Shown here: positions 48,673 to 50,891 of the stretch, in pieces | Layout of the letters: each line of letters begins with the position of its first letter | How positions within the stretch are numbered: the stretch's first letter is position 1 | NCBI RefSeq assembly: GCF_002633015.1 | Contig: NZ_NSIU01000001.1 | Span: 62,001-126,000 of the forward strand | Direction: 5' to 3' | Length of the DNA stretch: 64,000 bases | DNA from: Sulfuricurvum sp. PD_MW2 | Lineage (GTDB): Bacteria > Campylobacterota > Campylobacteria > Campylobacterales > Sulfurimonadaceae | The notes under the pieces: generated by a model | Told to the model about the DNA's origin: nothing | The model's input: the letters and a program-made list of their open reading frames with translations, nothing else | Database searches by the model: none | Made by a program: the position numbers and the translations under genes

Positions 48673-49998
48673 ATGAGCGAAAACTCAAAAACTCCCCGTA
48701 ATAACTCGAAAAATCGTACCCACATACCAGTTGACGGATTCACAATTGAAGCACTCCGTACCAAAAAGCTTGAAGATCTCCTCGAAATTGCTGCGTCACT
48801 CAACATCGAAGACCCCAATGAACTAAAACGCCAAGATTTGATTTTTGAAATTCTCAAAACACAGGTTCAACAAGGGGGATTCATCCTCTTTACCGGTATT
48901 TTGGAAATCATGCAAGACGGGTATGGTTTCTTGCGCGCCGTCGATCAATCTTTCAGTGACTCGATGCACGATGCGTACGTATCCAGTACCCAAATCCGCC
49001 GCTTTGCTCTTCGTAACGGGGATATTGTTACAGGACAAGTGCGCGCACCGAAAGACCAAGAGCGTTATTACGCTCTCCTCAAAGTCGAAGCGATCAACTA
49101 TCTCCCGCCCGAAGAGTCTAAAAAACGTCCACTCTTTGAAAACCTCACACCACTCTATGCATTGGAGCAAATCAAACTCGAGTATCAACCAACCAAACTC
49201 ACCGGCCGTATGATGGATCTTTTCGCTCCGATCGGTAAAGGGCAGCGCGGATTGATCGTCGCACCTCCGCGTTCAGGGAAAACTGAACTTATGAAAGAGA
49301 TTGCACACGGTATCACCAATAACCATCCTGAAATCGAGTTGATGGTTCTTCTTGTTGATGAGCGTCCGGAAGAGGTAACCGATATGGAGCGCTCCGTCAA
49401 AGGAGAAGTGTACAGTTCAACGTTTGATGAACCGGCAAAAAACCATGTCAAAGTCGCTGAAATGGTGATCGAGCGGGCAAAACGCCGCGTCGAGCTTGGT
49501 AAAGATGTTGTGATCCTCCTCGACTCAATCACCCGTCTTGCCCGTGCGTACAATACCGTCACACCATCGAGCGGAAAAGTCCTCTCGGGTGGGGTGGATG
49601 CCAATGCATTGCACAAACCAAAACGATTCTTCGGTGCTGCCCGTAACATCGAAAACGGCGGGAGTTTAACAATTATTGCGACTGCGCTTGTTGAAACGGG
49701 AAGCCGAATGGATGAAGTTATTTTCGAAGAGTTCAAAGGGACCGGTAACTCCGAGATTGTCCTCAGCCGTAAAATCTCCGACCGCCGTATCTTCCCTGCA
49801 ATCGATATTCTCAAATCGGGAACACGTAAAGAAGAGCTTCTCATCGGCCCTGAAATCTTGCAAAAAGTATTCGTTCTTCGTTCTATGCTTCATAAGCAAG
49901 AAGACGAAGTTGAAGCGCTCCGCTTCCTCTATAATACAATGCTCAAAAGCAAATCCAATATCGAATTTCTTGAAAGCATGAACGCCGAATCCAAATAA
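48673..49998 (+). CDS. rho: transcription termination factor Rho
   Basis: The hexameric RNA helicase that ends transcription. After a short N-terminal tail come the Rho-N domain (about 30-65), a cold-shock RNA-binding domain ([15 protein letters not shown]), and the RecA-like motor with APPRSGKTE (Walker A), [13 protein letters not shown], and the Q and R loops ([21 protein letters not shown]). Length 441 is slightly longer than E. coli. It starts a rightward run with murI and dnaX. Confidence 0.97.
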
Positions 49999-50011
49999 TG
50001 GAAATACTAAA

Positions 50012-50098
50012 ATGAGCAAAGCCCATTTTAGCAGCAGGGACAAGTTTGTCCCTTGCAACCCCCTGAAGCTACCGGCACGTCTGCCGGAGATAAATTAA
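50012..50098 (+). other. three-hairpin element with a 28-codon frame between rho and murI
   Basis: Three hairpins follow each other: TAAAATG/CATTTTA (50007-50030 region), AGGGACAA/TTGTCCCT (around 50036-50053), and CCGGCA/TGCCGG (around 50072-50087). The same stretch reads as 28 codons from an ATG at 50012 to a TAA at 50096, with no good ribosome-binding site. It is GC-richer than nearby spacers. It could be a terminator-like or REP-like repeat, a structured RNA, or a small gene. No second copy was found in this window by eye. Confidence 0.5.
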
Positions 50099-50102
50099 TA
50101 CC

Positions 50103-50891
50103 ATGACCATTGGGGTATTCGATTCGGGACTCGGAGGTCTCACGATCGTTGCTACTATGCGCTCTCAATTACCGGGAGCGAACATTATCTACATCGCCGA
50201 TACTGCAAATGCCCCCTATGGTGAAAAAACCAAAGAACAAATTTTAAACTATTCCATACACATCACAGACTATCTGGTTGAACACCACCACATCGATGCC
50301 CTCGTCGTCGCATGCAATACCGCCACCTCCGCTGCTATTATCGAACTGCGCGAACGCTATAGCAACCTTATTATTGTGGGAACCGAACCGGGTCTTAAAC
50401 CGGCCATTTCCCACTCCGAGACGAAAAAAGTGGGAGTTTTAGCCACCCCAGCAACACTCGAGGGTGAAAAATACAAAGCACTTGTCGCGATGCTGAGCAA
50501 TCACTACCACGTAGAGGTGTTTGAGCAGCCCTGCCCCGGTCTTGTGCAACAGATTGAATCGGGAGAAACAACGAGCGATAAAACCCTCTCAATGCTCGAA
50601 ACATGGCTATCCCCGATGCGCGATCATAACGTCGATACCATTGTTTTGGGATGTACCCACTATCCGCTGGTCAAAGAGAGTATTCAAAGAGTAATGCGTC
50701 GCTCGATCACCTTCATCGACAGTGCCGAAGGGGTGACCAAACGACTGATCTATCTGCTAAGCGAAAAAGGGCATGAATTCCACGGTAAAACCTCTCTGCA
50801 CCTCTTCTCTACCGGTCCGATTGATACCACAATGGTCGAGACGATTTTAGGCGAAAATTTTAGGGTATCCGTGATAAACTCTTTAAATTAA
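50103..50891 (+). CDS. murI: glutamate racemase
   Basis: Provides D-glutamate for peptidoglycan. The two catalytic Cys lie in VACNTATSA (about residue 70) and LGCTHYP (about residue 182), with FDSGLGG at the start. Length 262 is usual. It is followed by dnaX after 17 bases. Confidence 0.96.
   Translation: MTIGVFDSGLGGLTIVATMRSQLPGANIIYIADTANAPYGEKTKEQILNYSIHITDYLVEHHHIDALVVACNTATSAAIIELRERYSNLIIVGTEPGLKPAISHSETKKVGVLATPATLEGEKYKALVAMLSNHYHVEVFEQPCPGLVQQIESGETTSDKTLSMLETWLSPMRDHNVDTIVLGCTHYPLVKESIQRVMRRSITFIDSAEGVTKRLIYLLSEKGHEFHGKTSLHLFSTGPIDTTMVETILGENFRVSVINSLN

Follow-up and report, generated by a model that had tools for sequence, protein, structure and literature searches.

The spacer between rho and murI of Sulfuricurvum sp. 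PD_MW2 holds the relic of a MITE, a non-coding mobile element with terminal inverted repeats (TIRs) and 5-bp target site duplications (TSDs), a reading to which we assign a probability of roughly 0.92. What looked like an odd spacer serves as a marker of a widespread MITE family shaping the intergenic DNA of environmental Campylobacterota, in which one interior type reaches about 100 copies per genome.

Hairpins and reading frame in the rho-murI spacer

In the window, i.e. the whole 64,000-nucleotide stretch that was analysed, rho (48673-49998) and murI (50103-50891), both named from their translated sequences, are separated by a spacer of 104 bp (49999-50102), which is filled by three inverted repeats and a 28-codon frame. 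The repeats are located at 50007-50017/50021-50031 (11 nt, 91% complementary), 50036-50043/50046-50053 (8 nt, perfect) and 50072-50077/50082-50087 (6 nt, perfect), and RNA folding of positions 49990-50115 yielded -39.1 kcal/mol, compared with -25.4 ± 3.2 in dinucleotide shuffles (z = -4.23), with none of the 200 shuffles folding as well. The three hairpins described in the first-pass annotation are borne out by these values, although the stem lengths it gave (7, 8 and 6 bp) were only approximately right; it was also correct in describing the spacer as GC-richer than others, the 49% of 50007-50098 being above all 17 window spacers of at least 60 bp (median 36.5%), and in noting an ATG-to-TAA frame of 28 codons, which is present at 50012-50098.

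The whole degenerate, 3′-truncated copy was placed on the + strand at 49993-50100 by cmsearch with a family covariance model, which it matches over its full length, positions 1-108 (91.1 bits, E = 5.8e-28). Its own score is not independent, as the 61 sequences used to build the model include this copy (L010); independent support comes from BLASTN matches to copies in other genomes, which are up to 84-85% identical. Its parts, all on the + strand, begin with 49994-50010, which, set beside its orthologues in two relatives (G001 and G014) and the family at large, is read, partly by interpretation, as a badly decayed remnant of the 5′ TIR (consensus ACTGATGTTACGCACT); this remnant overlaps the rho stop codon (49996-49998). 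Hairpin 1, CTAAAATGAGC-AAA-GCCCATTTTAG (50007-50031), and hairpin 2, GCA-GGGACA...TGTCCC-T-TGC (50034-50058), were delimited from the fold, the inverted repeats and covariation, and the former contains a family-conserved A-C mismatch three pairs from the loop (columns 28/37, 47 of 61 copies). The alignment then reveals an unpaired motif, AACCCCCTGAAGCT (50057-50070; family form AAYCCCCTRAAGCT), the near-invariance of which partly reflects how the copies were chosen, most having been collected with a pattern containing that motif. Hairpin 3, CCGGCA-CGTC-TGCCGG (50072-50087), was recognized from the fold and inverted repeats, and its stem is identical in the orthologues of G014 and G001, where the loop alone differs. 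The window copy has no recognizable 3′ TIR, and its TSD is not readable.

Strong hairpins in a spacer, together with a terminator-like match on the minus strand (50033-50005), could be taken for an intrinsic terminator or attenuator acting between rho and murI. However, no hairpin of the + strand is followed by a T run, in agreement with the earlier remark that the arrangement is unlike a simple terminator, and rho and murI are directly adjacent in species without the element; we regard a terminator as highly improbable.

The 28-codon frame was judged incidental from the ORF list and the family comparison, and as far as sequence can tell it is almost certainly accidental and functionless, its ATG being supplied as a by-product by the hairpin 1 sequence AATGAGC. 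The chance that it represents a small protein gene, which was among the options originally offered, is slimmer still than that of a terminator. In its favor, the frame is open from ATG to TAA, and the G001 orthologue has a similar 28-aa frame, but in the G014 orthologue it is frameshifted part-way, and the ATG is found in only 54 of 180 family copies, distributed over all three frames relative to the core (30, 15 and 9 copies in frames 0, 1 and 2) and opening frames of between 2 and 81 codons. In addition, no Shine-Dalgarno sequence was seen upstream of the ATG at 50012. The option of a tiny protein gene finds no support in these comparisons, and the frame is best left out of gene annotation.

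Copies, termini and target duplications

The family is dispersed through Campylobacterota of the Sulfuricurvum/Sulfurimonas/Sulfurovum type and, as far as seen, is restricted to that phylum. BLASTN with the spacer, which had been suggested as a way to reveal many copies, did reveal them: 27 of 60 relatives have similar copies, scattered over many unrelated sites, and one more partial copy is present in the genome of PD_MW2. The covariance model, built from 61 diverged copies, yielded matches in 35 of the 60 relatives (between 0 and 30 in each genome of the window's genus), as counted from the best 64 scored candidates per genome, and two copies in PD_MW2 itself, a number obtained with this model and BLASTN. 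In G039, a complete genome of 2.25 Mb, nhmmer gave 106 matches, 79 of them with E < 1e-20. When 84,980 species genomes were scanned for a pattern, at least 120 stretches matched; among the matches listed, the titles nearly all belong to Campylobacterota (Sulfuricurvum, Sulfurimonas, Sulfurovum, Helicobacteraceae and others of the kind), with one labeled “bacterium”, and further matches may lie in other phyla. A plasmid collection contained one copy detectable with the consensus core, on a Sulfuricurvum kujiense plasmid, and no match to the joined TIRs, and no copies of the element were found in viral contigs and phage records. Fifty of the 79 strong copies in G039 overlap called ORFs by less than 20%, as opposed to 4.9% for random positions, with genes called by a simple ORF heuristic, and the orientation of their neighbors is mixed (classes of 21, 20, 11 and 11).

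The longer copies end in inverted repeats, ACTGATGTTACGCACT at the 5′ end and AGTGCGTAACATCAGT at the 3′ end, and full-length copies with ACTGAYSTTACGCA TIRs measure about 124-156 bp, typically 125 bp in G039 and 134-156 bp elsewhere. Both TIRs were identified in 18 of 129 core-selected copies, and the G039 copies also carry them. Among copies collected by the core motif, the 3′ TIR was seen in 20 of 129 and the 5′ TIR in 89, with different mismatch limits (4 and 5), and displaced control stretches contained the 5′ motif in 4 of 129 cases and the 3′ motif in 2. An exact 5-bp TSD surrounds 20 of the 56 complete core elements, compared with 0.75% for mismatched flanks; flank matches of 4, 5 and 6 bp were found for 4, 20 and 1 core elements, respectively, forming a sharp peak at 5 bp, and the duplicated targets are AT-rich. 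A 14-mer motif from the TIR end is present in 32 of 397 genomes of the phylum, with zero matches to the reversed-motif control in all 32, and the complete genome G191:C1 (loci L186-L215) contains 152 TIR matches with no more than one mismatch and none to the reversed control. Taken as a whole, the family combines TIRs, a TSD of fixed length, short non-coding multi-copy sequences and a site, rho-murI, that is occupied in some genomes and empty in others, as is typical of MITEs. Several points count against a MITE: the window copy has neither a recognizable 3′ TIR nor a readable TSD, 3′ TIRs are few among the core-selected copies, no autonomous element turned up in the 3.7 Mb examined, and the conservation and structure of the interior exceed what a passive element would show.

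The first-pass annotation had also raised a REP-like repeat family. The repeat family is real, being dispersed and multi-copy by BLASTN, the pattern scan and the covariance model, but with its TIRs and 5-bp TSDs it is not strictly REP-like. A REP/REPIN element moved by a RAYT (IS200/IS605-type TnpA) transposase would likewise be palindromic, extragenic and present in high copy number; our element, however, combines three to four hairpins with long TIRs and a 5-bp target duplication, while RAYT/IS200 chemistry makes no target duplications, and the GTAG/GGAG tetranucleotide foot is absent, as read by eye, from its position 5′ of the hairpin. We therefore rejected this candidate as very unlikely.

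Returning to the MITE relic, we compared rho-murI junctions across the genus, collecting the orthologous loci by a rho search, as a murI-based search missed most genomes. The element is present at this junction in three genus members (G000, which contains the window, G014 and G001), two more (G429 and G021) contain a remnant without hairpins 1 and 2, and in the other rho loci examined in the genus murI starts 0-6 bp past the rho stop codon. The distal flank of the window copy, TTAATACC-ATG (50093-50102, + strand), resembles a pre-insertion rho stop and murI leader when the rho loci are compared: it corresponds to TAATCCGAT-ATG in G001 and TAACCACCA-ATG in G014, and the uninserted G015 and G036 have TAACCGAC[TG]-ATG. 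It may represent the original rho stop and leader displaced downstream, if such short sequences are read correctly; on an equally short sequence, the rho stop TGA of G001 can be read within a TGATG matching the terminal repeat.

In the scenario that we favor, a putative transposase acting in trans recognized TIRs of about 14-16 bp (ACTGAYSTTACGCA) and placed copies at AT-rich 5-bp targets, chiefly between genes; the insertions themselves are shown by the TIRs, the TSDs and the presence or absence of the element at one site. One copy entered the rho-murI junction in an ancestor of Sulfuricurvum sp. PD_MW2 and some of its relatives, separating two genes otherwise 0-6 bp apart. Its 3′ end and the greater part of its 5′ end were then lost, leaving the three internal hairpins. 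The insertion may have provided rho with a new stop codon and murI with a new leader (GGAGA), and may have affected the expression of both genes. Because the 3′ terminal repeat is missing, we view the copy as a relic that is probably no longer mobilizable.

Covariation of the stems

The arms of hairpin 1 occur in 114 distinct versions in 178 copies and are still complementary, and both-sided stem changes amount to 177, compared with 52.5 ± 6.0 in shuffles, none of the 500 shuffles being as high. In 27 pairs of orthologous copies with the same flanks, which are not all independent and of which two of twelve inspected look non-orthologous, there were 22 compensatory, 48 single and 4 double-broken cells. 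One-sided G-U intermediates are nearly absent: outside one column, G-T and A-C combinations on the + strand number 17 and 34, respectively. Ordinary selection on an RNA helix would leave many G-U intermediates, and hairpin-templated (quasipalindrome) correction during replication is a known mutational process. Because the stems covary almost without such intermediates, a top-strand RNA is disfavored, and the pattern points to hairpin-templated correction or to selection on DNA or on the bottom strand. The A-C mismatch retained near the hairpin 1 loop (47 of 61 copies), which on the minus strand would read as a G-T(U) wobble, suggests some constraint, arguing against pure correction; templated correction or selection may have caused the covariation.

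In the covariation analysis, which had been proposed as a check for a structured RNA, the stems covary well beyond shuffles but nearly lack the G-U intermediates expected of an RNA helix. A cis-acting structured RNA, as listed in the first-pass annotation, is not upheld by the data: G-U does not exceed A-C, neither the neighboring genes nor the orientation are constant, and a search of Rfam at permissive thresholds returned only chance matches, none of them above the gathering score.

Somewhat more credible than any of the alternatives above, yet still doubtful, is a role for the interior itself: the three hairpins with the CCCCTRAAGC motif could function as a structured RNA, or as a hairpin of single-stranded DNA that a protein recognizes, kept by selection and riding on MITE ends. 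Tentatively, selection would act on one folded strand of the interior, possibly the bottom one in view of the conserved G-T wobble, either as a cellular RNA or as a DNA hairpin needed for mobilization, and unrelated MITE interiors would share one transposase across Campylobacterota. Such selection is compatible with the excess of covariation over shuffles, with the preponderance of compensatory over double-broken cells in same-flank orthologous copies, and with retention of the specific mismatch; if it operates, copies fixed at one site would gain compensatory changes after insertion. On the other hand, one-sided G-U changes are very rare relative to both-sided ones, orientation and neighboring genes are not fixed, Rfam offers no counterpart, the orthologous pairs are limited as described, and hairpin-templated correction could yield covariation without any selection. 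Hundreds of copies, together with orthologous pairs, constitute a natural data set on why the arms of repeat hairpins stay complementary, whether through templated correction or selection.

Other interiors and relation to known repeats

The same TIRs bracket unrelated interiors in elements of 51-271 bp, with sizes of 51, 92-95, 107-113, 126-180, about 155-174 and 271 bp, and a 5-bp TSD is present in 30 of 86 TIR-sharing elements with other interiors. Because the same TIRs flank so many unrelated interiors, it seems that one transposase family, acting in trans, moved the whole set of MITEs, although the transposase itself is postulated from these shared ends. A search for an autonomous element, in which two TIRs would lie 0.5-6 kb from each other and be flanked by an exact TSD, covered 3.7 Mb, the whole of G039 and sampled parts of most other genomes, and yielded only MITEs or chance pairs, as did inspection of TIR-flanked ORFs in several genomes.

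Several of these elements deserve separate mention. A GC-rich multi-copy element of 271 bp (L176, L177 and G039:C1, at 334173-334443, 456261-456531 and other positions) has ACTGATGTTACGCAGT TIRs at both ends and 5-bp duplications, and has probably been active recently. The elements of about 155-174 bp contain an embedded GTCATTCCCGCGAAGGCGGGAAT-type repeat, and at L178-L183 a palindromic repeat of the GTCATTCCCGCGAAGGCGGGAATCCAG type lies inside elements bounded by ACTGAYSTTACGCA TIRs, some with 5-bp duplications, which suggests that MITEs can carry the palindromic repeat as their interior. The genome G191:C1 is unusually MITE-rich, mostly in 126-180 bp elements with a different interior. At L166 (280-330) and L168 (260-310), 51-bp elements consist of little beyond two TIRs in one hairpin, the former with a 5-bp duplication; they are possibly the minimal mobile unit. 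Within the core family, L026, L149 and L157 represent a longer variant with an extra hairpin of about 20-30 nt (ACCCAAANNNGGGCACGYGAGCCC type) in the loop of hairpin 1, and in L089, L109, L110, L130 and L141 hairpin 1 or 3 is interrupted by a short repeat of the CTAAAGAAACTTCGTTTT type, so that a second tiny family is nested in the first.

MITEs are a well-known kind of element, and the present one is apparently a new, undescribed family: a literature search conducted without most subscription journals and ISfinder found no paper in which these repeats or TIRs are named. The papers whose text contained the 11-mer GATGTTACGCA were unrelated by title (e.g. integron recombination assays), and the agreement was taken as coincidence. 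BOX of Streptococcus pneumoniae is likewise a modular, structured and dispersed intergenic repeat, but differs in sequence and lineage, and TIRs and a TSD are demonstrable in the present family. REP, BIME and REPIN sequences with RAYT are also extragenic palindromic repeats occurring in large numbers; ours, in contrast, is a composite bounded by TIRs, with a 5-bp TSD and no GTAG/GGAG foot in the REP position. The closest likeness is to other bacterial MITEs (Correia/NEMIS, RUP of pneumococcus, ERIC/IRU and Tn3-type TIMEs), which are short, non-coding, intergenic and foldable, with TIRs, target duplications and high copy number. From these named families it is set apart by its own ACTGAYSTTACGCA TIR with a 5-bp duplication, seen so far in Campylobacterota alone, and by an interior composed of three covarying hairpins and the conserved CCCCTRAAGC motif.
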